Part shown: piece after piece, positions 1,520-26,023 of the stretch
How positions within the stretch are numbered: the stretch's first letter is position 1
How the letters are laid out: each line of letters starts with the position of its first letter
Virus record (IMG/VR): IMGVR_UViG_3300002144_000048
Location: 1-28,213 of that record
Length of the DNA: 28,213 nucleotides
Reading direction: 5' to 3' (one strand)
Source of the DNA: a virus
Notes under the pieces: generated by a model
What the model was told of the DNA's origin: nothing
Databases searched by the model: none
Seen by the model: the letters and a program-made list of their open reading frames with translations, nothing else
Made by a program: the position numbers and the translations under genes

Positions 1520-4066
1520 ATGTCTTTTTATACCTCAGTCAATCGTTATGGTAACTCAATCTTGTATCGTGGGTACAATGATAACGGAGTTGCTATTAAT
1601 GATAGAATAAAGTTTAAGCCAAAACTATACGCTCCAGTAGATACTGAATCAGAGTTCAAATCATTCTTCGGCGATAACGTCAAAGAGATTGAGTTCGAGT
1701 CTATGGGCGCTGCTAAAGAATATGTTGGTATGTACGATGGTACTGACAACTATCAGATTCATGGTACTACAAACTATATTCACCAGTTCATTACAGATCG
1801 TTTTCCCAAAGACATTTCATTTAATATCAAACACATTAACGTTGTTAACTTTGATATCGAGGTAGCATCTGATGATGGTTTCCCTACACCAGAAGCGGCT
1901 GCTTATCCAGTGATTTCTATCGCTCTTAAATCAAGTCAATCATCTGTTTATCAAGTCTGGGGTCTCGGTGAGTATGATCCAGAAAAGTGTGAAGTTGATA
2001 TGCACGGTGATCTTATTCAGTATCATTTCTGTAAGTCTGAAGAAGAACTTCTTGCTAAGTTTCTCGGCTACTGGTCTAAGAACTATCCAGATGTTATCAC
2101 TGGTTGGAATAGTCGTTTCTTTGATATTCCGTATATCGTAAATCGTATTCGTATCATTGCTGGTGAAGAATATGTCAATAAGCTTTCGCCATGGAAACAA
2201 GTCAACACACGTAATCAAAATATTATGGGTCGTGAACAGTTTGGATATGAACTCGTTGGCATTCAGCAAGCAGACTATCTTGAACTGTTTAAGAAGTTTG
2301 GTTATTCGTATGGTATGCAAGAATCATATAAACTAGATCATATTGGTTATGTTGTTCTCGGCGACAACAAACTATCGTATGAAGAACATGGTAGCCTACA
2401 CACACTCTATAAGAATGATCATCAGAAGTTTATTGACTATAACATTAAAGACGTTCAGCTTGTTGACCGTATTGATCAGAAGATGGGTCTGATTTCTCTG
2501 GCTCTGACAATGGCGTATAAAGGTGGTGTTAATGTTAGTGACACTATGGGTACTACTAACATATGGGAATCGATTATCTATCGGCGCCTGTTGAGCAAGA
2601 ATATCATTTCTCCTATCAATCAGATTGATGGTATTTCATATTCTGTTCTCGGATCAACCGAACTAAAAGATGGCAATAAAGCACTGAATATTGCTGGCGG
2701 TTATGTCAAAGATCCTCAAGTAGGTTCACACGACTGGGTTGTTTCTTTTGACTTGAACTCACTATATCCTAACATCATTGTCCAACAGAACATCTCACCC
2801 GAGACATTAGTACATCAAGAGCGTAGACCTCAAGGTGTTAAGTATTATATGAACCATGATAGAACTAAACAAATAAGTAAAGACTTTGCGGTATGTTCTT
2901 CTGGTGTTATGTTTCATAAAGATAAACAGGGCATTGTTCCAGAGTTGATTGTCGATTACTATGCAGAGCGTACTGTTATAAAAAAGAAAATGTTAAAAGC
3001 ACAGTCTGCATATGAGAAGACTAAAGACAAAGCATTAGAATCAGAAATCAATCAGCTACACAATAATCAGATGGCTATTAAGATTCTTCTTAACTCTCTC
3101 TATGGCGCTCTGGCTAACAAACATTTTAAGTACTTTGATAATGCCTTAGCAGAATCAGTAACGCTTACTGGTCAGACTGTTATTCAGTGGGCTGAAGAAG
3201 CTATCAATAAAGAAATGAATAGTCTTCTTAAAACATCCAAAGATTATGTTATTGCCATTGATACTGATTCGGTTTATATTAGCATGGCTGGTCTTGTGAA
3301 ACAGTTTGCTCCAGCAGATCCAGTTAAGTTCATTGATAAGATTTGTGAAGAACACTTTAAGAAAGTTCTAAAGAAATCATACGATGAGTTCTATTTTATG
3401 ATGAACGGTTACACACCACGTATGGAAATGGATCGTGAGGTCATTGCCGATCGTGGTATCTGGACTGCAAAGAAAAGATATATTCTCAATGTGCATAACT
3501 CTGAGGGTGTTCAATACGCAGAACCCAAACTCAAGATGATGGGTATTGAAGCGGTCAAGTCTTCAACTCCACAAATCTGCCGTGACAAGTTCAAAGAGAT
3601 ATTCAAAGTTATTATGAATAAATCTGAAGCTGATGTACAGAAGTTTATTCGTGAGTTTAAAGCGGAGTTTAGTAAACTGCCGCCTGAAGCAGTATCCTTT
3701 CCACGTGGCGTGAATGGTATTGACAAGTTTGGTGATAAGAAAAACATCTACGGCAGCGGTACACCAATGCATGTTCGTGGTGCTTTGTTATATAATCACT
3801 ATGTCAAACAAAACAAACTTCAAGATAAATACGAATCGATTAAGAATGGCGAGAAGATCAAGTTTGTGTATCTGAAAACACCAAACACTATCAAAGAAAA
3901 CTGTATAGGTTATCCAATGCAGCTGCCTAAAGAACTAGGTCTACATAAATACGTTGATTACAATAAAATGTTTGAGAAGACTTTTCTTGATCCACTGACA
4001 CCGATACTTGATGCTGTTGATTGGCAGTCTGAGCCAAGAGCATCACTTGAAGATTTCTTTGGATAA
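1520..4066 (+). CDS. 43: Family-B DNA polymerase (T4 gp43-like)
   Basis: An 848-residue replicative polymerase (T4 gp43 is about 898). The 3'-5' exonuclease domain shows Exo I FDIE (D112, E114), Exo II WNSRFFD (D202) and Exo III YNIKD (Y307, D311). Polymerase motif A is DLNSLYP (D411), motif B is KILLNSLYG (K521-G529) and motif C is DTD (D581, D583). All catalytic residues are intact, so it should be an active proofreading replicase. The C-terminus ends ASLEDFFG, matching the T4 gp43 tail that binds the sliding clamp gp45. GGAG precedes the start. It has its own promoter (1466). No intein or homing insertion is seen. Confidence 0.97.
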
Positions 4067-5987: not shown

Positions 5988-6325
5988 TGAAATATGTAAT
6001 CGACATCGACGGCACTATCTGTAAAGAAGTTATTCTTCCTAACACTGGTGGTAAAAAAGACTATGCCAATCATATTCCAATGCCAGAGCGTATTGCAAAA
6101 GTAAATGCGTTATATAATGCGGGACACACAATTAAGTATATGACTGCTCGTGGCTGTGTTAGTGGCATTGACTATTATCAACTAACAAAAGATCAACTAG
6201 TAAACTGGGGCGCAAAGCATCATGAATTAAGCGTAGGCGAGAAAGAAAACTACGACATCTGGATTGACGACAAAGCATTCTGGAGTGAGAACTTCTTCCG
6301 TGAAACAGGAGAAACTTATGAGTAG
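5987..6325 (+). CDS. Small HAD-superfamily phosphatase
   Basis: A 112-residue minimal HAD hydrolase. Motif I is DIDGT (nucleophile Asp and acid/base Asp), motif II is the threonine in YMTARG, motif IV is WIDDKA. It resembles short HAD proteins linked to capsule or sugar biosynthesis, and in marine phages often seen near sugar genes. Starting at 5987 (TAATG) puts motif I at residues 5-9, the normal distance, so the upstream in-frame ATG 5975 is disfavoured. It probably removes phosphate from a sugar phosphate or nucleotide; the substrate is unknown. It overlaps the aldolase by 8 nt. Confidence 0.8.
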   Translation: MKYVIDIDGTICKEVILPNTGGKKDYANHIPMPERIAKVNALYNAGHTIKYMTARGCVSGIDYYQLTKDQLVNWGAKHHELSVGEKENYDIWIDDKAFWSENFFRETGETYE

Positions 6326-7139
6326 ATTTATTGCAGCAATGGATCACAGTGGTGGTTCGACCGGCGGCGTACTAGAACGCTACGGACAAGAATACACCGA
6401 ATCAAACAAGATGGACAAAGTTCATGCTATGCGTTTACGAATGGTTAACTCACCTGCTTTTAATGATAAAAATATCTGGGCAGCAATCCTCTACAAAGAC
6501 ACAGTTGCACGTGGCATGGTTAACATCTTGGATGAAAAAGGCATCGATACGTTCCTAAAGATTGACAGTGGTTGTAACGAAGATGGAACACTTAAACAGT
6601 TTCCAGTAAAGCAGCTGTTAGAGTTTGCAACACAGACTGATGCAAATGGTGCTAGTATCGGTGCTAAAATATACGGTACAAAAATGCGTAGTATTGTTAA
6701 AAGTGTAGACATGGTTAGAGCAATTCTTACACAACAGTTTCAACTAGCAGAAACTATTTGTAGTTACGGACTTGTACCTATCATCGAACCAGAGGTTCCT
6801 ATTGATCATCCTGAGAAAGAACTAATTGAACAAGAACTATACGAACTATTAGAGAAGTTTTTGAATGAGAAAAAATTTAAAGTTATTCTTAAACTAACAC
6901 CTCCTGAAGTGCCTAACCTGTATCACAACCTAACAGTTAAGCATAATGTAGAACGAGTAGTGTTCCTAAGCGGCGGATACAGCACAGACGAAGCGTGTAA
7001 TAGACTCGGACTTAACGAAAATGTAAGTGCTAGTTTTAGTAGAGCATTGTCTGAAGGCTTAAATAAGGGGTTTACAGACGAACAATTTAATGATATAATG
7101 GAACATAATATACTTAGAATTGTAAAGGCATCTTCATGA
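6318..7139 (+). CDS. Class I fructose-bisphosphate aldolase (Staphylococcus Fda-like)
   Basis: A 273-residue Schiff-base aldolase, slightly shorter than the staphylococcal enzyme (296). Diagnostic stretches run in order: FIAAMDHSGGSTGGVLERYG at the N-terminus, FLKIDSG, GTKMRSIV, LVPIIEPEV, VILKLTPPEVPNLYHNL (K192 as the expected Schiff-base lysine) and VVFLSGGYSTDEA, then ASFSRAL. All active-site signatures are intact. The enzyme interconverts fructose-1,6-bisphosphate with dihydroxyacetone phosphate and glyceraldehyde-3-phosphate. The start at 6318 is set by AGGAGA (6307-6312). Placement between a HAD phosphatase and a phosphomannomutase suggests diversion of central carbon into a sugar pathway. 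Class I aldolase of this subtype is unusual in a phage. Confidence 0.9.
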   Translation: MSRFIAAMDHSGGSTGGVLERYGQEYTESNKMDKVHAMRLRMVNSPAFNDKNIWAAILYKDTVARGMVNILDEKGIDTFLKIDSGCNEDGTLKQFPVKQLLEFATQTDANGASIGAKIYGTKMRSIVKSVDMVRAILTQQFQLAETICSYGLVPIIEPEVPIDHPEKELIEQELYELLEKFLNEKKFKVILKLTPPEVPNLYHNLTVKHNVERVVFLSGGYSTDEACNRLGLNENVSASFSRALSEGLNKGFTDEQFNDIMEHNILRIVKASS

Positions 7140-7855
7140 CAAAAAGCTTTATCTTTGATGTTGACGGAACATTAACACCATCTCGTGGTAGAATTGACGA
7201 GGAATTCCGTCTGTGGTTCGCTCAGTTCTGTTGGGATAATGATGTGTATATGGTCACCGGATCAGATAAAGCAAAGACTGTTGAACAAGTCGGTGAGTAT
7301 ATTTACAATCTGTGTAAGAGAGTATACCAATGTGCTGGTAATGATATATGGGAACAAGATAATAATATCAAGAAGCCTGCATTTATGACTCTACCTGATA
7401 TTGCTGAAGAATATCTTGATCGACAACTTAACTATACCGATTGGGTGCCATTAACTGGTGCTCACTCTGATTATAGACCAGGTCTACTAAACTTTTCTAT
7501 TGTTGGTAGAAATGCCACACTAGAACAGCGCAAAATGTATTCTGATTATGATAAACAAGTTAAAGAACGGTCACGTATTGCCCAAGGATTTAATAAAAGA
7601 TTTCCTCAATACCAAGCATCTGTTGCTGGTGAAATCGGTATTGATATTACTGTAAAAGGTTGTAATAAATCTCAGATACTCAAAGACTTTGATGAAGCTG
7701 GTCTTTACTTCGAAGATATTATTTTCTTTGGTGATAAATGTGATGCTGGTGGTAATGACTATGAGATTGCCGAAGCTGTTGCATTTGGTGGTGGAAGAGT
7801 GTATAATGTAAAAGACTGGAAAGATACTTGGGTTAAACTAAAAGGAATTATATAA
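7136..7855 (+). CDS. Eukaryote-like phosphomannomutase (HAD class IIB)
   Basis: A 239-residue protein close in length to eukaryotic PMM (about 246). Motif I FDVDGTLTPSR has D8 and D10; MVTGSDKAKT follows; the cap domain has PGLLNFSIVGRNAT then YSDYDK; and FFGDKCDAGGNDYEI gives D200 and the GGND motif. This combination is characteristic of alpha-phosphomannomutase of the eukaryotic type, which converts mannose-6-phosphate to mannose-1-phosphate, the precursor of GDP-mannose. Most bacteria use the unrelated ManB/AlgC family. The start overlaps the aldolase stop (ATGA). Mutase rather than phosphatase activity is inferred from motif conservation. Confidence 0.85.
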   Translation: MTKSFIFDVDGTLTPSRGRIDEEFRLWFAQFCWDNDVYMVTGSDKAKTVEQVGEYIYNLCKRVYQCAGNDIWEQDNNIKKPAFMTLPDIAEEYLDRQLNYTDWVPLTGAHSDYRPGLLNFSIVGRNATLEQRKMYSDYDKQVKERSRIAQGFNKRFPQYQASVAGEIGIDITVKGCNKSQILKDFDEAGLYFEDIIFFGDKCDAGGNDYEIAEAVAFGGGRVYNVKDWKDTWVKLKGII

Positions 7856-7995
7856 TGTGGGCAATTCTTGTGATATCATTTGTGTCTAATATATATGGCG
7901 CATTTGAAAATAAAGATGATTGCATTGCAGCTGCAATAGATTTAAAGAGCCAAGGCATAAAAGCAGTTTGTGTTCAGATAGAGGAAAAGAAATGA
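7855..7995 (+). CDS. Small protein with hydrophobic N-terminus, 46 aa
   Basis: A short gene fitting exactly between its neighbours: ATG overlaps the preceding TAA (TAATG) and its TGA overlaps the next ATG (ATGA). The 46 residues begin MWAILVISFVSNIYGAF, a possible short membrane or signal segment, followed by a soluble part with two cysteines (DDCIAAAIDL and KAVCVQIEEKK). Small proteins of the form hydrophobic start plus YG-x-F plus C-x3-A are frequent in marine phages; function unknown. Exact coding continuity supports it as real. Confidence 0.7.
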   Translation: MWAILVISFVSNIYGAFENKDDCIAAAIDLKSQGIKAVCVQIEEKK

Positions 7996-8459
7996 AAGTA
8001 GGAATCACAGCATCTACATTTGATCTACTTCATGCAGGACATGTTATGATGCTCCGTGAAGCTAAAGATCAATGTGACTATCTTATCTGTGCTTTACAGA
8101 TTGACCCATCATTTGATAGACCAGACAAGAATAAGCCTGTTCAGTCAATTGTAGAACGCCATACTCAACTGGCTGCTGTTAGGTATGTCGATGAGGTTAT
8201 TCCCTATCTCACTGAACAAGATCTTGAAGACATTCTTAAAATGCATAACATTAATGTGCGTATTATTGGAGAAGAATATAAAGAAAGAGAATTTACCGGT
8301 AGAATCATCTGCGACCAACGCGGCATTGATATATACTTCAATAAGAGAGACCACAGGTTCTCTACCAGTGATCTGAGAGCAAGAGTATATGGCGAAGAAC
8401 TAAAAAAAGATATTGAAGGTGATACTATGGTTTTACATTCAGATAAAAATGTGGTATAA
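7992..8459 (+). CDS. Cytidylyltransferase-like nucleotidyltransferase (TagD family)
   Basis: A 155-residue single-domain nucleotidyltransferase. The nucleotide-binding site shows STFDLLHAGHVMMLREAK (HAGH at 14-17). RYVDEVIPY and RIIGEEYK follow, and STSDLR (124-129) is the ISSTxIR-type motif. Closest in pattern to glycerol-3-phosphate cytidylyltransferase, which makes CDP-glycerol; other members activate different phospho-alcohols or sugars. Starting at 7992 (ATGA overlap) gives MKVGITAS, the normal N-terminal strand; the earlier ATG 7920 is rejected. It could activate the product of the aldolase/mutase steps, but the true substrate is unknown. Confidence 0.85.
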   Translation: MKVGITASTFDLLHAGHVMMLREAKDQCDYLICALQIDPSFDRPDKNKPVQSIVERHTQLAAVRYVDEVIPYLTEQDLEDILKMHNINVRIIGEEYKEREFTGRIICDQRGIDIYFNKRDHRFSTSDLRARVYGEELKKDIEGDTMVLHSDKNVV

Positions 8460-8838: not shown

Positions 8839-9714
8839 ATGATAGAGAGAATTTACATACCCACTGTTCGAAGATGCGACAAACAAATTACATTCGAGAA
8901 TCTTCCTAAAGAACTTCAAGAACGAGTTGTTATGGTTATCGAAGCAAGAGAACGACATCTTTATAGTTATCCTTGCGAGTACTTGAAAATACCTGAAAGC
9001 ATAGTGGGTACTTGGACACAGTTAGCACAGACTAGATTGTTCATTCACAAACACGCTGGTGCGATTAAGTATTGTGTTGCTGATGATGATCTACCGATTA
9101 AACGAAGAAACTCTAAGTATTGGACTGAAACGTCAAATATGGAAACGTCTAAGCGATATGCTACTCAAGAAGAAATCCTGTTGATGTATGAGACTGTGGA
9201 TAAATGGTTTGATGAACCGTCTATAGGAGTTATTGGTCTTTCTGATCCAGGCACTCCACCTCAAAATAATGAGTATGTTGATACCGTAGATGTGTATGGT
9301 TATGTGTTTTATGACGGCAGAATGATATCGAAGATTATCGATGATATAGATATTTGCTCATTGAGGATAGCAGAAGATGTACTCTTTCTCTATGAGATAC
9401 TGTCTAGAGGAATAAACACTAGAAGATCTAATGAGTGGATGTATGATAACAGAAGTGCGTCTGATAAAAAGCTTGCAAAATCTAGGGTAGTCTGGACAGA
9501 AATGTATAAAGATGGTGATGAGAAGCCAGCTAATTACTACCAAAGTAAAGAGCATTACGATGCTATGAGATTCATCCAAGAGAGGTATCCCCACGGCGTG
9601 AAGATTTTTGAAAAAGATGGAAAGATGAAAAACGTTAAGTACTGGAAGAAAGTGTACAAACCTTTGGGATCTGATGGCACACCCAGCGCATCCCTTGAGA
9701 GCTTTTTCTCTTGA
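8839..9714 (+). CDS. Putative GT-A-fold glycosyltransferase with C-terminal sliding-clamp-binding tail
   Basis: A 291-residue protein. The N-terminus RIYIPTVRRCDKQITFENLP followed by RVVMVIEARE, then TWTQLAQTRLFIHKHAGAIK and the acidic YCVADDDLP (DDD at 82-84), matches the layout of the TET-associated glycosyltransferase-like protein at 11254 (strand, RAR-helix, DDN). I infer a nucleotide-sugar-dependent GT-A fold with DDD as the metal site. The last eight residues, ASLESFFS, match six of eight positions of the polymerase tail ASLEDFFG, indicating clamp docking. Acting on DNA at the replication fork follows as inference. A glycosyltransferase acting on another substrate is the main alternative. 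It has its own strong promoter. Confidence 0.6.
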   Translation: MIERIYIPTVRRCDKQITFENLPKELQERVVMVIEARERHLYSYPCEYLKIPESIVGTWTQLAQTRLFIHKHAGAIKYCVADDDLPIKRRNSKYWTETSNMETSKRYATQEEILLMYETVDKWFDEPSIGVIGLSDPGTPPQNNEYVDTVDVYGYVFYDGRMISKIIDDIDICSLRIAEDVLFLYEILSRGINTRRSNEWMYDNRSASDKKLAKSRVVWTEMYKDGDEKPANYYQSKEHYDAMRFIQERYPHGVKIFEKDGKMKNVKYWKKVYKPLGSDGTPSASLESFFS

Positions 9715-10314: not shown

Positions 10315-10559
10315 GAGAAAAGTTTAAAATACATAAAGCCAATAAGATGGCTGACTGGGTAGAGAATGCGGTTACCGAATGGGCTTCTGACTTGATTCTT
10401 GGTCATTTTGAGGTCGAATCAATAGGAGATCTAACTCGTAAAGAAATTGATGAAGTTATTGAAGAATGGGAAGAACTGTCTAGTTACAATGATTGGTTAG
10501 GTCTAGGCTTTCGCAACTGTATATGCACTTGGGAAACTGAAAACGATGAATATATTTGA
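10311..10559 (+). CDS. Acidic hypothetical protein, 82 aa (GTG start)
   Basis: An 82-residue protein starting with GTG in a GTGA overlap. It contains ADWVENAVTEWASDLILGHF and a conserved-looking IDEVIEEWEELSSYNDWLG helix, with five tryptophans. Its character (acidic, tryptophan-rich) is like that of the preceding protein, and the pair may form a complex. The stop overlaps the MazG start by one base. Confidence 0.65.
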   Translation: MREKFKIHKANKMADWVENAVTEWASDLILGHFEVESIGDLTRKEIDEVIEEWEELSSYNDWLGLGFRNCICTWETENDEYI

Positions 10560-10918
10560 TGATAAGAAAGAAACAAATGCAGCTAGTTGAAAAGATTGCC
10601 CAATGGCACCGTGATCGTAATCTGATTGACGGCAGTACCGATAAAGATCAGTACATGAAACTGATTCAAGAAGCTGGTGAACTATCTGATAACATCTGTA
10701 AGGGCAAAGATATCCGTGATGATATTGGTGATATGATGGTTGTTCTTATTAATATTATGACTCGTAATGGTCTATCTATGGAAGAATGTCTACAAGTAGC
10801 CTATGATGATATTAAAGATCGTAAAGGAAAGATGATTAATGGCGTTTTTGTGAAAGAAAGTGATTTACAAGATGACCTATATAATGCTATACTGTACGAA
10901 CACACAACGGAGATATAA
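10559..10918 (+). CDS. mazG: MazG-like nucleotide pyrophosphohydrolase
   Basis: A 119-residue single MazG domain. The metal-binding pattern is KLIQEAGELSDN (E38, E41) and DDIGDMMVVL (D55, D58), followed by the typical AYDDIKDRKGKMINGVF tail. MazG enzymes hydrolyse nucleoside triphosphates to monophosphates. In phages they are proposed to adjust (p)ppGpp-linked physiology or to cleanse or recycle dNTPs, including host-derived or modified ones. ATG 10559 overlaps the upstream TGA. Given the modification genes around it, excluding unmodified dNTPs is a possible role (inference). Confidence 0.85.
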   Translation: MIRKKQMQLVEKIAQWHRDRNLIDGSTDKDQYMKLIQEAGELSDNICKGKDIRDDIGDMMVVLINIMTRNGLSMEECLQVAYDDIKDRKGKMINGVFVKESDLQDDLYNAILYEHTTEI

Positions 10919-11254
10919 ATGTCAAGTGAAGTTGAAGAGTCAGCAGAATACGAAAACTTCTTAGGTAAGAAAGAAGAACTTCCTGAATCAGCAAATCTTG
11001 CTGACTTCTTAGGTATTCCTGCAGAAGAAGCCGATGATAAAGTATTTTGGCAGAAACATTGGCAAGGTATGCCAGAGTTTAATCAAGAAGAGAATCCACC
11101 ACACCGTAAGTTGATTATAAGCTTTCGTAGTGAAGAAGACTATCAAGAGTTTGCAACTCTGATTGGTCAAAAACTCACAAAGAAAACTAAGAGTGTCTGG
11201 CATCCAAAGCTAGATCGTGATGCTAATACACTGAAGCGGTGGGTAGAAGAATAA
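10919..11254 (+). CDS. Hypothetical protein with two FLG repeats, 111 aa
   Basis: A 111-residue protein immediately upstream of the TAGT-like gene (TAATG). The N-terminal half is acidic and holds two similar short segments, SAEYENFLGK and SANLADFLGI. The C-terminal half is a small alpha/beta domain (RKLIISFRSEEDYQEFATLIGQKL followed by KSVWHP) of a type often met in phage proteins near DNA-modifying enzymes. ATG 10919 follows the upstream TAA directly, with GGAG at 10909-10912. Possible adaptor protein; function unproven. Confidence 0.7.
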   Translation: MSSEVEESAEYENFLGKKEELPESANLADFLGIPAEEADDKVFWQKHWQGMPEFNQEENPPHRKLIISFRSEEDYQEFATLIGQKLTKKTKSVWHPKLDRDANTLKRWVEE

Positions 11255-12153
11255 TGACAAATCCCAAATATCCAGTTTATATTATTTCAAAAGGTCGACA
11301 TGAATCTATGTTGACCTCTAGATCGTTGGCACGTATGAAAGTGCCTCATTATATTGCTATTGAGCCGCAAGATGAAAAACTATACGACAAAACACTTGAT
11401 AACTTTGGCATTCGACCATATGTTACATTACTAGTTGCTCCGTTTAGTAATCATGGCGATGGTCCTGGTCGTGCTAGAAACTGGTGTTGGGATCACTCTA
11501 TCGCTCTTGGTGCAGAACGTCACTGGGTACTAGATGATAATATCGCAGACTTTTATCGTCTACAACATAACTTGCGTATTCGTGTTGAGAGTGGTGCTAT
11601 CTTTCGTGCATCAGAAGACTTTGTTGATCGCTATGAGAATGTACCAATCTCTGGGTTTCAGTATCGTTTCTTTATTGCACCAAACACTAAGTACCCACCT
11701 TTTGTAAAAAACACACGTATATATTCTACGCTTTTGATTGATAACAAATGCAAGTTTCGCTGGCGTGGTCGCTATAATGAAGACACTGACATTTGTCTAC
11801 GTGTACTTAAAGATGGTGACTGTACTATTCAGTTTAATGCATTCTTGCAAGGCAAAGCAGCTACACAGTCTGTCAAAGGTGGTAATACCTCTGAGTTCTA
11901 TCACGCAGAAAATACTGAAAATGAAAACTTTGAAAAGTCTGGATTCAATAGTCTGGGTACTGTGAACAAGTCGCAGATGCTTGTAGATATGCATCCTGAT
12001 GTTGCACGAATGGTATGGCGTTTTCGTCGTTGGCATCACCATGTCGATTACTCTTCTTTCAAACCAAATCAACTGATTCTAAAATCTGGTGTTGTGATTC
12101 CAAAAGGCGTCAATAACTATGGTATGAAGTTGACTACAAACTTTAAAGGCTAA
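11254..12153 (+). CDS. TET-associated-type glycosyltransferase (TAGT family)
   Basis: A 299-residue GT-A-fold glycosyltransferase. Diagnostic parts: VYIISKGRHESMLTSRSL strand-helix at the N-terminus, PHYIAIEPQ, GRARNWCWDHSIALGAERHW, the DxD-type VLDDNI (D94, D95), and YNEDTDICLRVLKDGDCT (E176, D177, D179) near the catalytic site. This pattern is that of phage TAGT proteins, which were predicted to glycosylate hydroxymethylated or otherwise modified bases in DNA. No TET/JBP oxygenase is in this window, so any acceptor base would have to be made elsewhere. The start is TAATG; ORF extension to GTG 11239 is not favoured. Family call good, DNA as acceptor is inference. Confidence 0.75.
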   Translation: MTNPKYPVYIISKGRHESMLTSRSLARMKVPHYIAIEPQDEKLYDKTLDNFGIRPYVTLLVAPFSNHGDGPGRARNWCWDHSIALGAERHWVLDDNIADFYRLQHNLRIRVESGAIFRASEDFVDRYENVPISGFQYRFFIAPNTKYPPFVKNTRIYSTLLIDNKCKFRWRGRYNEDTDICLRVLKDGDCTIQFNAFLQGKAATQSVKGGNTSEFYHAENTENENFEKSGFNSLGTVNKSQMLVDMHPDVARMVWRFRRWHHHVDYSSFKPNQLILKSGVVIPKGVNNYGMKLTTNFKG

Positions 12154-12245: not shown

Positions 12246-12770
12246 ATGACAAAAAATGTTTCACAACGAGATTCGACTTTTAAAGGCGGCATTCAAAAAG
12301 GCACAACTGCTTTTGATGTTGCTAGTAAAAAACTAGATAAACAATTGAAAGAGTCTTTTGATGTATTGTCTAAATCTTATTCGCAATATGAAGTTTGTAA
12401 ACAGTTTACCAAAGAAATGAAAATCAAATATATTGGTGATGATTGTTTTGGCTTTGCTCCTGATGGCGGCGCATGGTTTAAAAATGGCAAGTTAGTTGCA
12501 GTGTTTGAAGCCAAGAAACAAGGCAAACTTGGTAATGCTAATGAACGCTGGTATGATAATGCCGACACGGCAAAATATATAAACAAAGACGTTGTTTATG
12601 TTACCTTCTGTTCTGGTGCTGGTGCTGCGCCTGGCGAGTGTCTTGATAAGATGCGAAGAAAAGCTACTATCACTAAAGGCAAAAACTTTAAGTTTTTTAT
12701 GAATCCAGTTGGTTTTACCGACAATGAAGTTCTGTCGGTTATGGAAAATGTGTTGAAAGAAATAGTATGA
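12246..12770 (+). CDS. EcoRI-like type II restriction endonuclease (PD-(D/E)xK)
   Basis: A 174-residue nuclease. The catalytic core reads FAPDGGAWFKNGKLVAVFEA followed by KKQG: P72-D73-G-G, E88-A-K90, matching the PDGG and EAKHQG of EcoRI (D91, E111, K113). The following GNANER (96-101) matches GNAIER of EcoRI, whose N141, A142, E144 and R145 read the AATT core. EcoRI itself is 277 residues, so this is a compact form with a shortened loop between the two blocks and no obvious C-terminal arm. The stop overlaps the methyltransferase start (ATGA). Strong shared promoter. Alternative: a stand-alone host-degrading nuclease with no sequence-matched methylase. Confidence 0.75.
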   Translation: MTKNVSQRDSTFKGGIQKGTTAFDVASKKLDKQLKESFDVLSKSYSQYEVCKQFTKEMKIKYIGDDCFGFAPDGGAWFKNGKLVAVFEAKKQGKLGNANERWYDNADTAKYINKDVVYVTFCSGAGAAPGECLDKMRRKATITKGKNFKFFMNPVGFTDNEVLSVMENVLKEIV

Positions 12771-13693
12771 AACCATTATATATGTGGGCAGGCGGTAAGA
12801 ATAAGATGATTTCAAAATACTTACTGTCTCCTGGCATACCTTTGGCTGGATATGATACGTTTGTTGAACCATTCTTTGGTGGTGGAGCTATGATGATTTG
12901 GGTTAATGAAAACAATCCAAACATCAAACGCTTTGTTTTAAATGATATCAAAGAAGAACTCGTAGGAATATATGTTGCCATAAAAACAGATGTTGATAAC
13001 TTTATTAAAAAGTTAGATGCTCTATCAGCTTTATACATACCATTAGATAAAGCTGAACGTAAAATATTCTTCTATGATCTAAGAACACCTTACGCCACAA
13101 ACACCCACGGTCTTAATAAAACAGACGAAAGCGCAACTCTTTATTTTCTTATGAAGACTGCTTTCAATGGTATTTGGCAAAGTACCAAACGTGCAAATGG
13201 TAGATTTGATACTCCTTTTGGATTGGGTAATCAAAAGACAGTTGTTTACGATAAAGATAACGTTTTAGAATGGCACCAGTTTTTACAGAGGGTCGACATC
13301 ACTTGTGGTGATTGGAAAGACTCATGTAAGATTGTTGAAGAGAAAGCATTCTACTTTATGGACCCTCCTTACAGAGATAGCTTTACAAGTTATGGCGAAG
13401 GCTTTACCGATGCAGATCATCAAACTCTAATAGAGTATTGTGTACAAAAAGATTTGCAAGGTAATATTGTATTTTACTGTAATAGGGATGATGCACAAGA
13501 TGGCTTCTTTGATGCACACAAAGCACATCTAAACGACAGCTACTTTGACATTAAGTATACTGCTGGGCGTAGAGCCACTGAAAAAGACAAAGATGGCAAT
13601 CCTATCCTAGACGAAGATGGTAACAATAGACGTACAGCAAAAGCAGCAAAAGAAATATTGCTGCACACAACTCTTGCCATTAAAAACATCTAA
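12767..13693 (+). CDS. D12-class (Dam-like) DNA adenine methyltransferase
   Basis: A 308-residue N6-adenine methyltransferase of the alpha/D12 class. It begins MKPLYMWAGGKNKM (WAGGK, the AdoMet-binding start), has motif I FVEPFFGGGAMM, the class-typical YFLMKTAFNGIW and the catalytic motif IV DPPY (199-202). The C-terminal part has a charged insertion (EKDKDGNPILDEDGNNRR) followed by KEILLHTTL. All key residues are present. The class includes Dam, DpnM and EcoRV methylase; the target cannot be read from the sequence. Coupled by ATGA to the EcoRI-like nuclease, it most simply is its protective partner. Confidence 0.9.
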   Translation: MKPLYMWAGGKNKMISKYLLSPGIPLAGYDTFVEPFFGGGAMMIWVNENNPNIKRFVLNDIKEELVGIYVAIKTDVDNFIKKLDALSALYIPLDKAERKIFFYDLRTPYATNTHGLNKTDESATLYFLMKTAFNGIWQSTKRANGRFDTPFGLGNQKTVVYDKDNVLEWHQFLQRVDITCGDWKDSCKIVEEKAFYFMDPPYRDSFTSYGEGFTDADHQTLIEYCVQKDLQGNIVFYCNRDDAQDGFFDAHKAHLNDSYFDIKYTAGRRATEKDKDGNPILDEDGNNRRTAKAAKEILLHTTLAIKNI

Positions 13694-13708: not shown

Positions 13709-14662
13709 ATGACACATATTATGGTAACAGGTGGTGCAGGATTTATTGCGTATCATCTCATCAACTCTTTAGTTGAAAATGGATATGAGGTATCAGCATT
13801 TGATAGCTTCAATCATTACTATGATCCAGAACTAAAGAGAGATCGTGCTGATAAACTAAAAGACCTTGGTGTTGATGTAGCGTTTGTTGATCTAAAAGAT
13901 CGACCAGCGCTTATAAAGTTTGTTGAACATCATAAGCCAGATATCGTAATGCACTTAGCTGCTTATGCTGGTGTTCGCCATTCACTCAAAGATCCACAGA
14001 CTTATATTAATAACAACATCACTGGTACTCAAAATCTGATTGATGCTTGTAACAAAGCTGGTGTTGATAAAGTTGTCTATGCATCCTCGTCATCTGTTAT
14101 GGCTGGTAATCCTCTTCCGTGGAATGAAGAAGAGAAGTGTGGTCATCTGTTGAATCCCTATGGCTATTCTAAGATAACAAACGAAAATCAGTTTATGAGT
14201 AGTAATATTAAGAGTGCTATTGGGCTAAGATTCTTTACTGTCTATGGACCATGGGGTCGACCAGACATGGCTCTATTTGATTTTACTAAAAACATTGTTG
14301 CTGGTAAACCCATTCAGTTGTACAACTATGGTAATATGATTCGAGACTTTACCTATATTGATGATATTGTCCAAGGTATTCGACTCATCTTTGACGAGAT
14401 ACAGAAGCACGATAGTGTCAAAGAAATATATAATATTGGCTACGGAGAGCAAGTAAAACTAGTTGATTTCGTTGAACATATCGAAAATAACTTAGATAGA
14501 AAATCTATTAGAGATTTAGTACCAATGCACCCGGCAGACGCTCAGGCGACTTGGTCAGACACTACCAAGCTACAAAAACTAGGCTATAACCCAACTACTT
14601 CTATCGCAGAAGGAGTGCAGAAATTTATTGAGTGGTACAAAATGTATTATAATATCAACTAA
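13709..14662 (+). CDS. NAD-dependent UDP-glucuronate 4-epimerase-like protein
   Basis: A 317-residue extended short-chain dehydrogenase. Rossmann motif TGGAGFIA (8-14, last Gly replaced by Ala), FDSFNHYYDPELK, MHLAAYAGVRHSL, YASSSSVM, catalytic Y151xxxK155, and the strongly diagnostic GLRFFTVYGPWGRPDMALF and IRDFTYIDDIVQGI. These are hallmarks of epimerases turning UDP-glucuronate into UDP-galacturonate. With the UDP-glucose dehydrogenase at 15386 it would give a two-step UDP-glucose to UDP-galacturonate route. The A14 substitution may alter NAD binding only mildly. It starts 15 bases after the methylase stop, so it shares its operon. Confidence 0.85.
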   Translation: MTHIMVTGGAGFIAYHLINSLVENGYEVSAFDSFNHYYDPELKRDRADKLKDLGVDVAFVDLKDRPALIKFVEHHKPDIVMHLAAYAGVRHSLKDPQTYINNNITGTQNLIDACNKAGVDKVVYASSSSVMAGNPLPWNEEEKCGHLLNPYGYSKITNENQFMSSNIKSAIGLRFFTVYGPWGRPDMALFDFTKNIVAGKPIQLYNYGNMIRDFTYIDDIVQGIRLIFDEIQKHDSVKEIYNIGYGEQVKLVDFVEHIENNLDRKSIRDLVPMHPADAQATWSDTTKLQKLGYNPTTSIAEGVQKFIEWYKMYYNIN

Positions 14663-15385: not shown

Positions 15386-16207
15386 ATGAAAACTAAAATC
15401 GCAATCATTGGGCATGGCTTTGTTGGCAAAGCTGTTGAGTATGGATTTACACATCCAGGCGTAGAACTTCATATCGTTGATCCAAAGTACGGAACAACAG
15501 TTGATGATCTGCCTGTCTGTAACTACTATTTCGTTTGTGTCCCAACACCATTTGGTTCTGACGGCACGATTGATACGACTATTCTAGATGATGTGATGGA
15601 AAAACTTGTCGCAGTCAACGGCATAGTTATTATTAAATCAACTGTCACGCCAGATGTTATTACTAAATGGCACAATCATATCGTTTACAATCCAGAGTTC
15701 TTGACTGAGAAATCTGCTAACGAACAGTTTGTTAGCCCAGAGTTTCATATCTTTGGTGGGTTTGAAGTGTACACAGATGAGATAGAACGGCTGTATAAAG
15801 AGTTCTCATTATGTACACCATGCCCAGCATTACATATGTCTCTTGAAGAAGCCAGCTTTGTAAAGTATACTATCAATAGTTTTCTTGCTATGAAAGTAAC
15901 ATTCTTCAATCAACTATACGACACAGTAAAAACAACTCGTGCTAACTACGGCACTATTATTAAGGCTGTTGGCTTTGATAAACGTATTGGACCTAGTCAC
16001 ACAAAAGTACCAGGCTTTGATAAACGTCAAGGCTACGGTGGTGCTTGCTTTCCAAAAGACACATCGGCGTTTGTTAGTTACAGTAAACGCTTGACATTAT
16101 TAGAGAAATGTATTAAAATAAACAATACATATCGCTCACAGTACGAACTAGATGAAAGAGAGAAAGAACAGCATGTCGATTATGGACAAACTAAAGAAGA
16201 ACTCTAA
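15386..16207 (+). CDS. UDP-glucose/GDP-mannose dehydrogenase-like protein, C-terminal domain missing
   Basis: A 273-residue protein. Rossmann motif IIGHGFVG (G9, G11, G14), FVCVPTPF, IIKSTVTPD, YNPEFLTE, the central helix FVKYTINSFLAMKVTFFNQ and the active site GYGGACFPKD (C221, K224, D225). These are all UDP-glucose 6-dehydrogenase signatures. Full-length family members have 390-450 residues; here the UDP-binding C-terminal domain is replaced by a charged 30-residue tail. It would oxidise UDP-glucose to UDP-glucuronate if the truncated form is active. It overlaps UvsX by 35 nt. GDP-mannose dehydrogenase activity is an alternative. Confidence 0.8.
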   Translation: MKTKIAIIGHGFVGKAVEYGFTHPGVELHIVDPKYGTTVDDLPVCNYYFVCVPTPFGSDGTIDTTILDDVMEKLVAVNGIVIIKSTVTPDVITKWHNHIVYNPEFLTEKSANEQFVSPEFHIFGGFEVYTDEIERLYKEFSLCTPCPALHMSLEEASFVKYTINSFLAMKVTFFNQLYDTVKTTRANYGTIIKAVGFDKRIGPSHTKVPGFDKRQGYGGACFPKDTSAFVSYSKRLTLLEKCIKINNTYRSQYELDEREKEQHVDYGQTKEEL

Positions 16208-17228
16208 GATTAAAACCACAGACATTCTATCTGAATCTAAGTTCTTTAACGAAAAAACTATGACACCCACAGACGTTCCTATGGTGAACGTTGCGCTATC
16301 TGGTTCTATTGATGGTGGACTAGCTCCAGGTCTACTGGTACTCGCTGGTCCATCTAAACACTTTAAGACTTCATTTGCTTTGCTCATGGCAGGTGCATAT
16401 CTTAAACAGTATCCAGATGCTGTGATGTTATTCTATGACTCAGAGTTTGGTTCTCCTCAGTCATACTTCACACAGTTTGGCATTGATACATCTCGTGTTC
16501 TTCATACACCTATTGCCAATGTTGAAGAACTAAAGTTTGATATTATGGGGCAGCTTGAAGCCTTAGATCGTGACGATAGAGTTATTATTGTTATCGACTC
16601 TATTGGCAACATGGCATCTAAGAAAGAAATGGAAGATGCGCTAAACGAAAAGTCAGTAGCAGATATGTCACGAGCCAAAGCACTCAAAGGCTTGTTCCGT
16701 ATGACAACACCATATCTGTCTATGAAGAATATTCCATTGATTGCTGTTAACCACACATATATGGAAATCGGGCTGTTCCCTAAAGCTATCGTTGGTGGTG
16801 GCACTGGTATATACTATTCGGCAGATAATATCTGGATTCTTGGTCGTCAACAAGATAAAGTTGGTACTGAGATTAAAGGTTATCACTTTGTTATTAATGT
16901 GGAGAAATCACGCTTTGTTAAAGAAAAATCAAAAATACCCATCTCTGTTTCTTGGGAGGGTGGGGTTCAACGCTGGTCTGGGCTGCTTGAAGTTGCTCTT
17001 GCTGGTAAGTATGTTGCTAAACCAACTATTGGCTGGTACCAATCAGTTGACCAAGAAACTGGTGAACTTGTTGGACCGAAATATAGAGAGAAGGACACAC
17101 TCACAGAAGAGTTCTGGAAACCAATCTTAGAAAATACAGACTTCAAAGACTTTGTGCAAAAACAATACTCTATTGGTCACGCTTCGTTGATTGATATGGA
17201 TTCTATTGTCGAGGAAGCAAATGATTAG
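16173..17228 (+). CDS. uvsX: UvsX RecA-like recombinase
   Basis: A 351-residue recombinase closely following T4 UvsX (391). It begins MSIMDKLKKNSKIKTT, then SKFFNEK, VNVALSGSIDGGL, Walker A GPSKHFKT (59-66), LFYDSEFG, Walker B IIVID (138-142), NMASKKEMEDALNEK, VNHTY and VGGGTGIYYSAD. The start at 16173 fits the UvsX N-terminus; an in-frame ATG at 16152 adds a non-conserved extension. It catalyses strand exchange and recombination-dependent replication. The acidic C-terminal tail of T4 UvsX is shortened (ends EEAND). It overlaps the preceding gene by 35 nt. Confidence 0.95.
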   Translation: MSIMDKLKKNSKIKTTDILSESKFFNEKTMTPTDVPMVNVALSGSIDGGLAPGLLVLAGPSKHFKTSFALLMAGAYLKQYPDAVMLFYDSEFGSPQSYFTQFGIDTSRVLHTPIANVEELKFDIMGQLEALDRDDRVIIVIDSIGNMASKKEMEDALNEKSVADMSRAKALKGLFRMTTPYLSMKNIPLIAVNHTYMEIGLFPKAIVGGGTGIYYSADNIWILGRQQDKVGTEIKGYHFVINVEKSRFVKEKSKIPISVSWEGGVQRWSGLLEVALAGKYVAKPTIGWYQSVDQETGELVGPKYREKDTLTEEFWKPILENTDFKDFVQKQYSIGHASLIDMDSIVEEAND

Positions 17229-23421: not shown

Positions 23422-23561
23422 TGGACGAGAATCGTGATGCATGGCGACTTCAGAACCTTGAAGATATGGTAGAGAAATCTAAATACACATCAAACTATTA
23501 TATGTGGTTCAATAAGCTTGAAGAGTTCAAGCGGTTACTAAAACGTGAGGTCAATCCGTGA
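23421..23561 (+). CDS. Small helical hypothetical protein, 46 aa
   Basis: A 46-residue protein that exactly fills the space between its neighbours: TAATG at the start and GTGA at the end. Charged and aromatic helices (AWRLQNLEDMVEKSKY and YYMWFNKLEEFKRLLKREV). Coupling on both sides supports it as a real gene. Function unknown. Confidence 0.65.
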   Translation: MDENRDAWRLQNLEDMVEKSKYTSNYYMWFNKLEEFKRLLKREVNP

Positions 23562-24106
23562 ATATCTTTATCTTGGATAACAATCCTATTAAGGCTGCTC
23601 AGTTACAATGTGACAAGCATGTTGTAAAGATGATTGTCGAGTCTGCCCAAATGCTTTCAACAGCACACCGTCTACTCGATGGTGTTGTCAGTGTTGGTGT
23701 ATCTAAATCTGGTCGTAAAGCTAAACAGTGGTTTCATCCTAAGCATGATGATCTATTGTACAAAGCTGTACATATGGGTCACCCGTGTACTGTATGGACT
23801 ATGGAATCTGTTGCTAACTATATTTGGCACTATGATCACTTTATGTCTTTGTGCTATGAGTATCAATATCGTTACGGTAAAGTTCATGCTACACAAACTA
23901 GACTTGAAGATGTTCTTTCTATACCACCTAGAAACATACCAATGCATGGTCTTACACCATTCAGGCTAGCTATGGGCGTAGCACCAGAGTGTATTGACGA
24001 ATCTAACCCAGTAATATCTTATCGTAAGTTCTATCAAACAAAACAAGCAAGGTTCAAGATGGCTTGGACCAAACGTGAAGTACCTGACTGGTTTCAAATT
24101 GCATAA
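23558..24106 (+). CDS. Conserved-type phage protein, 182 aa (GTG start)
   Basis: A 182-residue protein beginning MNIFILDNNPIKAAQLQCDK followed by HVVKMIVESAQMLSTAHRLL. This D-x2-P-x2-A-x6-DKH-x-VKM pattern occurs in many phage proteins without established function. Further histidine-rich segments (FHPKHDDLLYKAVHMGHPC, YIWHYDHF) and PPRNIPMHGLTPFRLAMGV suggest a metal-binding or enzymatic domain. The C-terminus is KREVPDWFQ. The GTG start is set by the GTGA overlap. I do not assign a reaction. Confidence 0.75.
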   Translation: MNIFILDNNPIKAAQLQCDKHVVKMIVESAQMLSTAHRLLDGVVSVGVSKSGRKAKQWFHPKHDDLLYKAVHMGHPCTVWTMESVANYIWHYDHFMSLCYEYQYRYGKVHATQTRLEDVLSIPPRNIPMHGLTPFRLAMGVAPECIDESNPVISYRKFYQTKQARFKMAWTKREVPDWFQIA

Positions 24107-24199: not shown

Positions 24200-26023
24200 A
24201 TGACAAACTATCCAAAGCCTGTAATGCGGGACTACCAAAAAGAGTACATCTATAATCCTATAATGGACGTGATGGCTGATCGTATCTCTACGCATCGCAA
24301 ATCCAAATCTTTGCTAAAATTCTTAGCACTTAGCACAAGTTCTGGTAAAACTTTTACCGCATGCAACTTTGTTGTGCCTGCTATCGTAGAGATGGGTTGT
24401 GATGTTATATACACGGTTCCTAACTGTGCCTCTATCGAAGAGGTAACAGAAGAGTTAAAACTACAATTGCCAGACCATCTGGTGTGGGGCGATAAAAGCC
24501 TGTTCGGTGGGAACTTCGAAGTTCCTAAGCTGAAGACTGGTCAACAAATGGTGGCTGTGATGCATCCAACAGTTTGTAGCAGCGGCGACAATCGGGAGAT
24601 AATTGCTGATTTGTGCAAAGACCGTAAAGTTGTTTTCATTTCAGATGAAGCGCACTTGGGTTTAACCTGTCCAGATGCAGAGTATACTCGTATGGCTTTT
24701 GGTGGCTACAATGCTAAGCATGAGGCCAACTGGTTTGATGCTATCGTTAGTTTTGAAACAGTTGCTTGGTTTATGATTTCTGCCACACCTCGGGCTCCAG
24801 TGTTTGTGTGTGAAGATACGTATGATATAATATCCGAGTATTATGATCGTGAGGTTCTATGTGCTTCACAGAAAGCTATCAAGAAAGTTGTTTTCTATAC
24901 CGATGACAGCGCAGCATACAATAACTGCTCTAAAAACAAGCGTAATGAAGCCGACGATATAATACGTGAATTGGATTGTGCTGAAATTTCGAATGATAGC
25001 ATTTCTGTATGCCCGAATAATTTTACTCAACTCAATGCAAATCTTGTCAACGGATTTAAAGATGAAGTTGATTGGCTGAATATGGTCACCAAAGAGTTTG
25101 ATTTGCCTGCTACTAAACCAGCAGGTATTATCCAAACAAACGGAGACAAAGCGCATCAGATATACCATTCTCTAGGCGTGATGGGTATGTTTCCGGTAAT
25201 TACTACGACCCGAGATAAGCAGGTATATGGCTTTGCAAAGCCCAACTATCAGCATGAATTTAATAAAGATAAGCCAAACTCTGCACAAGCTATCAGTTTT
25301 GTTGGCAATTACTCGAATGAGTATAATGTTCTGGTTGCCAATAAAATCGTCGGCGAAGCTGTTAATTTGCGTAATGCTAACTTTCTTGTGAGTGATCACT
25401 ACCGTGACAGCTGTAATGATACTGATATTACCACTACTGTTGAGCAGTTGCTTGGTCGGGTGATTCGTTGGCCAGATGTTGAAGGCATCAATAACTGGAA
25501 AGACGCTATTGAATATCGTGAGGCACGTATCGCTGATGGTGTTCCTCGTGACGTAATGGATCGCTGGATTGATATTGTTTTTAAATATGAAGTGCACATG
25601 GCTTACAGCCCAATCAATGCAGCTGGAGTTAAAAAATTCTTATCAAAACACACCTTTGGGACAGTCGAGTGGGCAAATTATCTGAAACGTTTTGATGTTA
25701 TAAGCCGTGCTAGATATGGTACTAAGGGTACTAAGACTCCTTGGTCACAAGAAGGCACTCAGGAGTACAAGGCATATCGTGATGATAATCCACACTGCGA
25801 GATTTGTCCTCGTACATCAAATGGTATTCCAGCATGTGAGGCATCTTACGCTGGTCGAATCCCAGAGAACCACATTCTCGAAAGAAATGAGGTTCACCAC
25901 ATAGACGGAGATCACTCCAACAATGATTTGTCAAATCTAGTGACTGTTTGTCCAGTAGTGCACTATTCCATCTCTGTGGAAGAAAGGCATTTTATCAATA
26001 AGCAGTATAGAAATGCTGCTTAA
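24200..26023 (+). CDS. SF2 DEAH helicase fused to a C-terminal HNH endonuclease
   Basis: A 607-residue two-domain protein. Helicase part: RDYQKEYI (Q-like motif), Walker A STSSGKTF (G49-K50-T51), DEAH box SDEAHLG (149-152), motif III SATPRAP (194-197), motif VI EQLLGRVIRWP (Q416, R420, R423). Nuclease part: CEIC (533-536), VHHIDGDHSNNDLSNLVTVC (H566, H567, N575, N579, C584) and a final H588: a complete zinc-stabilised HNH site. SF2 translocases fused to nucleases resemble restriction or anti-phage effectors more than the T4 UvsW helicase, which lacks HNH. It shares its promoter cassette with the restriction-modification operon. Target unknown; host or rival DNA is likely. Confidence 0.85.
   Translation: MTNYPKPVMRDYQKEYIYNPIMDVMADRISTHRKSKSLLKFLALSTSSGKTFTACNFVVPAIVEMGCDVIYTVPNCASIEEVTEELKLQLPDHLVWGDKSLFGGNFEVPKLKTGQQMVAVMHPTVCSSGDNREIIADLCKDRKVVFISDEAHLGLTCPDAEYTRMAFGGYNAKHEANWFDAIVSFETVAWFMISATPRAPVFVCEDTYDIISEYYDREVLCASQKAIKKVVFYTDDSAAYNNCSKNKRNEADDIIRELDCAEISNDSISVCPNNFTQLNANLVNGFKDEVDWLNMVTKEFDLPATKPAGIIQTNGDKAHQIYHSLGVMGMFPVITTTRDKQVYGFAKPNYQHEFNKDKPNSAQAISFVGNYSNEYNVLVANKIVGEAVNLRNANFLVSDHYRDSCNDTDITTTVEQLLGRVIRWPDVEGINNWKDAIEYREARIADGVPRDVMDRWIDIVFKYEVHMAYSPINAAGVKKFLSKHTFGTVEWANYLKRFDVISRARYGTKGTKTPWSQEGTQEYKAYRDDNPHCEICPRTSNGIPACEASYAGRIPENHILERNEVHHIDGDHSNNDLSNLVTVCPVVHYSISVEERHFINKQYRNAA

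Follow-up and report, generated by a model that had tools for sequence, protein, structure and literature searches.

The locus and its gene content

Three genes, all on the + strand, are the subject of this analysis: a glycosyltransferase of the TAGT family (11254..12153), a small partner domain directly upstream of it, which we call UP (10919..11254), and a second, divergent TAGT-family glycosyltransferase, GT2 (8839..9714). They lie on a viral contig of 28,213 bp, hereafter the window, which is the entire public record and likely a fragment of a genome; for this reason related contigs were searched in place of the remaining genome. The window carries T4-type replication genes, namely a family B DNA polymerase (gp43-like, 1520..4066, +), whose C-terminal SLEDFFG serves below as the reference motif, a UvsX with the T4 UvsX C-terminal domain and a DnaB-type helicase; ThyX is also encoded. 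The phage is a marine, T4-like one. When the core of the window was compared with named phages in a search for near-matching DNA, only a primase-helicase fragment was matched, and no close annotated relative emerged from it. Given that the closest TAGT relatives among genome contigs are found on alphaproteobacterial MAG contigs, an alphaproteobacterial host is suggested.

The nucleotide-sugar enzymes named in the initial annotation are real, as judged from profile matches. Upstream of GT2 there are a class I fructose-bisphosphate aldolase-like gene (6309..7139, +), which may serve sugar supply, a gene resembling HAD-IIB proteins and eukaryotic-type phosphomannomutases (7136..7855, +; PF03332, E=5.7e-25; TIGR01484), a possible source of sugar-1-phosphate, and a sugar-phosphate nucleotidyltransferase-like gene (7971..8459, +), a possible source of NDP-sugar. 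Downstream of the TAGT gene follow a D12-class N6-adenine DNA methyltransferase (12767..13693, +), a neighbour outside the conserved module, a nucleotide-sugar epimerase/dehydratase recognised by profile matches (13709..14662, +) and a short UDP-glucose dehydrogenase-like gene (15386..16207, +) that covers positions 69-298 of a 413-position model. MazG had been listed beside these enzymes in favour of base modification. A gene resembling MazG is indeed present (10556-10918), with a profile match of 20.4 bits against a cut-off of 22 bits. Because the match is below threshold and MazG is common in marine phages, we dropped it as a sign of base modification and give it no weight.

Elsewhere the window contains a DUF1127 gene (920-1102), a weak, sub-threshold match to a pyrimidine dimer DNA glycosylase (23558-24106) and a helicase-like protein with an HNH_3 domain at its C-terminus (24200-26023). 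An iron-sulfur assembly protein family member (PF01883, 8463-8765) is located directly upstream of GT2.

A full-length TAGT-family glycosyltransferase

The gene at 11254..12153 encodes 299 amino acids and matches PF20691 over model positions 1-205 of 205 with 152.6 bits (E=1.7e-44, cut-off 27.5); it also matches PHROG 842, 'beta-glucosyl-HMC-alpha-glucosyltransferase', with E=5e-47. The signatures GRARNWCWDHS, LDDN and NEDTDICLRVLKDG, on which the family had originally been assigned, are all present, and the assignment is correct. So is the earlier count of two GT-A-like proteins in the window, the other being the divergent TAGT that we call GT2. Across 44 aligned TAGT homologues the DDN (amino acids 94-96) and the Y-N-x-D within YNEDTD (amino acids 174-179) are invariant.

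The protein is predicted to have a GT-A fold with conserved acidic residues. Its AlphaFold2 model (pLDDT 88.8, pTM 0.88) matches varied GT-A enzymes, the best with a Z score of 15.4 and an rmsd of 4.5 over 215 residues, as well as other viral models named TAGT; the highest-ranking structural matches include POMGnT1 and GalNAc-T2. The model informs on the fold and not on the acceptor, and a comparison of the sequence with the PDB gave no credible relative. Both the full-length profile match and the predicted fold place the protein in PF20691. The trait that gave TAGTs their name, association with TET/JBP, is absent in the window and its large relatives. In our opinion this is not decisive for membership, since PF20691 includes the T2/T6 enzyme, which works with hmC made by gp42.

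In a tree of 35 rows the window TAGT groups with marine contigs, inside a larger group that holds the TAGTs of Aeh1, phage 65, PTm1 and Kuja together with prophage-like ones. Vibrio phage henriette 12B8 is a further cultured phage with a TAGT of this clade. GT2 groups with the T6 beta-glucosyl-HMC-alpha-glucosyltransferase (BA-GT; support 99/88), on branches that the program flagged as long.

Between the window and one related contig (L015) conservation is much higher for the TAGTs (79%) than for the polymerases (29%). This may reflect gene transfer or strong constraint. We set it aside as proof of a special constraint, because the loci had been selected through TAGT similarity and the comparison is biased accordingly.

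The UP partner domain

UP is a domain of 111 amino acids with the conserved elements WxxHWxGMPE, FRxxEDYxxF, KTKSIWHP and RW, in that order. Its stop codon overlaps the TAGT start (TAATG), and in most relatives it is likewise a separate, overlapping gene. In Aeh1, PTm1, phage 65, POP12, Kuja and some marine contigs it is fused to the N-terminus of TAGT. The linkage is strict: when the best 80 loci of a scan for UP were retained, a TAGT gene was found within 3 kb of UP in 80 of 80. Of 14 genome-derived loci, 12 have a match to the UP profile upstream of TAGT, two of the 12 matches being weak. In many relatives the UP-TAGT unit is situated among the genes for gp46, gp47, gp45 and gp44; in L012 the gp45 gene is at 16189-16923.

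UP has no credible relative in Pfam, PHROG, NCBIfam or the PDB. The fused UP-TAGT proteins give weak Pfam matches, below cut-off, to Smg4_UPF3 and AsnC, and the AlphaFold model of a fused protein is poor (pLDDT 59.8). A pointer comes from two loci (L200 and L204) in which UP is the C-terminal part of a ParB-like protein whose N-terminal ParB_N match is above cut-off; in a third (L207) the ParB_N match is below it. These ParB-UP-TAGT loci are prophage-like, and terminase-like neighbours were recognised by eye at some of the genome-derived UP-TAGT loci.

Two further observations concern the surroundings of UP. A small methyltransferase-like protein (GKRS..DFYPTP, NPPW) lies upstream of UP or overlaps it at L198:7245-7772, L051:555-1142 and L067:749-1297, the L198 copy having no Pfam match. 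On an alphaproteobacterial MAG contig (L195, 7590-9353, minus strand) genes resembling QueE, QueD and QueC, for 7-deazaguanine synthesis, were seen by eye some 6-8 kb downstream of UP-TAGT.

GT2 and interchangeable neighbours

GT2 (291 amino acids) is assigned from Pfam, PHROG, synteny and the tree. Its score to PF20691 is 27.3 bits, or 28.1 when searched together with its frame neighbours, and a homologue in a related locus (L082) reaches 35.6 bits; among named phages GT2 finds no match. In the window it is located about 1.2 kb upstream of UP. Many relatives have it between UP and TAGT or, where these two are fused, immediately upstream of the fusion, and in one (L240) GT2 and UP are themselves fused.

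The position between UP and TAGT can be taken by other genes: a GT-B-like protein with a sub-threshold Pfam match (L048), an FkbM methyltransferase (L016, L070), a different methyltransferase (L052) and, in some relatives, a protein of about 354 amino acids with no assigned family. We regard these genes as candidates for sugar-tailoring steps that are swapped in, most tentatively so for the family of about 354 amino acids.

At 48 of 81 loci (for instance L029:12023-12985) a member of a further conserved glycosyltransferase-like family (FNESLITRARNYC) is encoded between TAGT and the gp45 gene, about 2.4 kb downstream of the former.

Clamp-binding-like motifs in UP and GT2

The gp43 C-terminal PIP box and the RNase H PIP box bind the clamp gp45 (PMC3012046), and clamp-binding motifs are present in gp33 and in gp55, a T4 clamp binder (PMC7892883). 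The end of the window polymerase is closely resembled by the GT2 C-terminus, SLESFFS (9691..9711, +), and a related motif, NLADFLG, is found at amino acids 26-32 of the UP N-terminal tail (10994..11014, +). Thus both GT2 and UP carry, near a terminus, a motif like those of gp43, gp55 and RNase H. For comparison, the T6 polymerase ends in SLDFLFG, and a comparable GLxxFM-like motif terminates most of the gp55-like genes, in many of the same phages.

A regular expression for the motif matches 3 of the 44 window proteins, namely the polymerase and GT2 at their C-termini and UP in its tail; since the expression was written after these motifs had been viewed, this is not an independent test. A matrix was therefore considered that was made from polymerase C-termini alone and applied to 40 gene families. 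At the C-terminus GT2 ranks second of the 40 (median 9.7 bits, the next family 3.9), and within the first 45 residues UP ranks first, though with a median per-sequence shuffle value of only 0.10. In an independent set of GT2 proteins fetched later, the tight motif stands at the end of 22 of 26 unique C-termini, compared with 39 of 1392 (2.8%) in the background, and of 62 dereplicated UP tails 27 contain it, where shuffles predict 0.9; sequence relatedness is only partly removed from both counts. The linkers that precede the GT2 motif vary. The motif is absent from the UP part of the cultured relatives outside the marine lineage, i.e. Aeh1, 65, POP12, Kuja and two Vibrio phages. On the basis of these sequence patterns we infer that UP and GT2 bind the gp45 clamp via short motifs.

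Search for acceptor-making genes

The absence of a TET oxygenase from the window, noted from the start, holds in a profile search for TET_JBP that did detect the positive control, Nonlabens phage P12024L. In itself the missing TET is no anomaly, since T6 makes hmC through gp42. It had been proposed that TET/JBP or a dCMP hydroxymethylase be sought in the rest of the genome. Carried out on relatives, this search gave nothing: PF00303 (ThyA/gp42) and TET are missing from 24 window-like contigs, PF00303 from further viral contigs of up to 165 kb, and TET from the latter as well, in a search without a positive control of its own. The large relatives among them are contigs of 78-165 kb, and any of the contigs searched may be incomplete. 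The C5-methylase PF00145 was not found in related contigs, nor the T4 alpha-glucosyltransferase (PF11440) in the window or the large relatives; T6 was the positive control for PF11440. In the viral contigs of this lineage, any visible route to thymidylate is of the ThyX type. A 156-kb Robiginitomaculum contig has both a TAGT and a ThyA match, the latter of ordinary strength at 331 bits.

Cultured phages of the same TAGT clade give a divided picture. Gene 42 and the T4 glucosyltransferases are missing from Aeh1 and phage 65, and dC is probably unmodified in phages without this gene network (Petrov et al. 2010, PMC2993671). PTm1 encodes an additional ThyA-like protein, with the annotation 'thymidylate synthase and pyrimidine hydroxymethylase', and this one cultured relative may thus make hydroxymethyl pyrimidines.

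The window strongly avoids the palindromes GGCC, CGCG, CCGG and AATT (GGCC: 7 observed, 37.5 expected), and one relative (G002) has 31 CCGG where 164 are expected. Such avoidance speaks mildly against complete shielding of the DNA; it is weak counter-evidence, because T6 is likewise depleted in GATC.

Comparison with known DNA glycosyltransferases

The nearest precedent of reported activity is the BA-GT of T2 and T6, a DNA glycosyltransferase of T4-like phages, which according to PMC13216743 belongs to PF20691, is predicted to have a GT-A fold and glucosylates DNA. It shares family and predicted fold with the window TAGT; the T6 protein matches PF20691 with 37.2 bits. The differences are considerable. 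The window TAGT belongs to a different clade, no fused UP is seen in the T6 protein (279 amino acids), and T6 possesses gp42 and the alpha-glucosyltransferase, neither of which was found in the large relatives. T6-type gentiobiosylation would depend on these two, and both PF00303 and PF11440 are absent from the window fragment as well.

TAGTs without such company are common. PMC13216743 counts 288 of 753 phage genomes with a TAGT but without alpha- or beta-glucosyltransferase, their function being open. The Aeh1 homologue (Aeh1ORF087c; Iyer 2013, as cited in PMC8056088) is listed in PMC8056088 as a presumed modifier of an unspecified DNA base. These solitary TAGTs and Aeh1ORF087c are of the same broad class as the window TAGT; the Aeh1 protein is 53% identical to it, although with UP fused. 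The TAGT of Nonlabens phage P12024L is of the same Pfam family (76.3 bits) and about 25% identical, but it adjoins a TET gene; no such gene was detected in the window or among its large relatives.

With the T4 alpha-glucosyltransferase the shared feature is a proposed principle, the recruitment of a DNA glycosyltransferase to the sliding clamp. The T4 enzyme co-purifies with gp45, an interaction that is not the main determinant of the alpha/beta ratio, and it is a GT-B enzyme as opposed to the predicted GT-A type of the window (both from PMC13216743). The window proteins would be recruited by short motifs located in flexible tails.

Presentation of the hypothesis

We propose that UP and TAGT constitute a two-part enzyme, which GT2 would often assist in this lineage. 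Short hydrophobic motifs resembling the polymerase end would attach UP and GT2 to gp45, and this tether would bring the glycosyltransferases onto newly made phage DNA. TAGT would place a sugar on the DNA, GT2 or, in relatives, an alternative tailoring enzyme would extend or cap it, and the product may shield the DNA against host nucleases. Because no known base-hydroxylating gene was found, we leave the attachment atom on the DNA unspecified. In this form, i.e. a glycosylation module held at the replisome by the clamp, we consider the hypothesis moderately probable. Besides family and motifs it is favoured by the T4 alpha-glucosyltransferase precedent, the linkage and fusion of UP and TAGT, their place among replication genes in many relatives, the ParB-like fusions and the tailoring genes next to UP; against it count the missing acceptor-making gene in large relatives, the shortness of the motif and its absence from UP of cultured relatives outside the lineage, and, weakly, the avoidance of palindromes. 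Phage DNA is probably the acceptor, mainly by family precedent and by the clamp-like motifs. The original suggestion of sugar-decorated phage DNA therefore stays plausible, favoured by the identity of TAGT, the motifs and the T2/T6 example. Its oxidised pyrimidine finds no support, as neither TET nor a gp42-like enzyme nor a C5-methylase was detected in the related contigs of 78-165 kb.

Alternative explanations

The same genes can be read differently. TAGT could glycosylate 5hmC or 5hmU, with the maker of this base, TET or a gp42-like hydroxymethylase, encoded elsewhere in the genome. The window is probably a fragment, TAGT stands beside TET in P12024L, and PTm1 may have its own pyrimidine hydroxymethylase; all this fits. 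Yet the contig searches described above, with the reservation made for the TET search of the larger ones, the ThyX route to thymidylate and the gene content of Aeh1 and 65 argue against it, and we consider it rather unlikely. That no base-altering gene turned up in related contigs agrees with a protein acceptor, for example a replisome, transcription or virion component recognised by UP. Protein glycosyltransferases, too, have the GT-A fold, as the matches to POMGnT1 and GalNAc-T2 illustrate, and the Vibrio phage 1.076.O gene is located between portal and head-morphogenesis genes. The clamp-binding-like motifs and ParB-like fusions point instead to DNA, on which the PF20691 member of reported activity also works; a protein acceptor is, in our opinion, unlikely.

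The nucleotide-sugar genes of the window could instead serve surface glycans, and the FkbM-type methyltransferases that some relatives carry between UP and TAGT would suit a module which, as other phage sugar clusters do, makes surface polysaccharide or alters host glycans. We find this quite improbable: in G002 a glycan-type cluster, recognised by eye at about 65.8-81.7 kb, is separate from UP-TAGT, which occupies 50.5-51.8 kb within the replication core, and neither the constant company of UP and TAGT nor the clamp-like motifs would be explained. Those motifs might themselves be due to chance or to another partner, the acceptor of TAGT being something else. Short linear motifs are weak evidence, and ours is missing from UP of the cultured relatives outside the lineage; against this stand its frequencies in GT2 and UP, far above background and shuffles, and we hold this reading to be very improbable.

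Implications of the hypothesis

The recent literature has yet to settle what solitary TAGTs do (PMC13216743), and UP, the motifs and the swap-in genes make this question concrete. The UP partner, the clamp-binding-like motifs, the pairing with GT2 and the ParB-UP fusion are not described in the accessible portions of PMC13216743 or PMC8056088. If clamp-held glycosylation of DNA is correct, DNA is glycosylated in a widespread group of marine phages that do without the known enzymes for base hydroxylation, and the restriction resistance and sequencing artefacts of these phages would have to be read differently.

One may go further and imagine a self-contained, replisome-tethered system of UP and TAGT, often with a second tailoring enzyme, that sugars DNA by an undescribed attachment chemistry without gp42/ThyA-like or TET/JBP enzymes, and whose ParB-UP form is spread through prophages of several bacterial phyla. 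This broader proposal is doubtful in our own estimate.

A comparable arrangement exists in E. coli prophages, where YnaK, of the ParB/Srx family, is encoded directly upstream of a TAGT, as in the ParB-UP-TAGT loci. The likeness rests on the ParB-like neighbour: identity between the E. coli TAGT and that of the window is about 25%, and the fusion of a ParB-like protein with UP is established for the prophage-like loci rather than for YnaK. In E. coli K-12 the gene after a short ynaK is ydaY, which does not encode a TAGT; the idea that YdaY is a decayed TAGT was rejected, as the two do not align. Of 5426 complete E. coli genomes, 885 contain the pair of YnaK and TAGT with at least 80% of its length covered (for example hit H53; L092:5205-6921).
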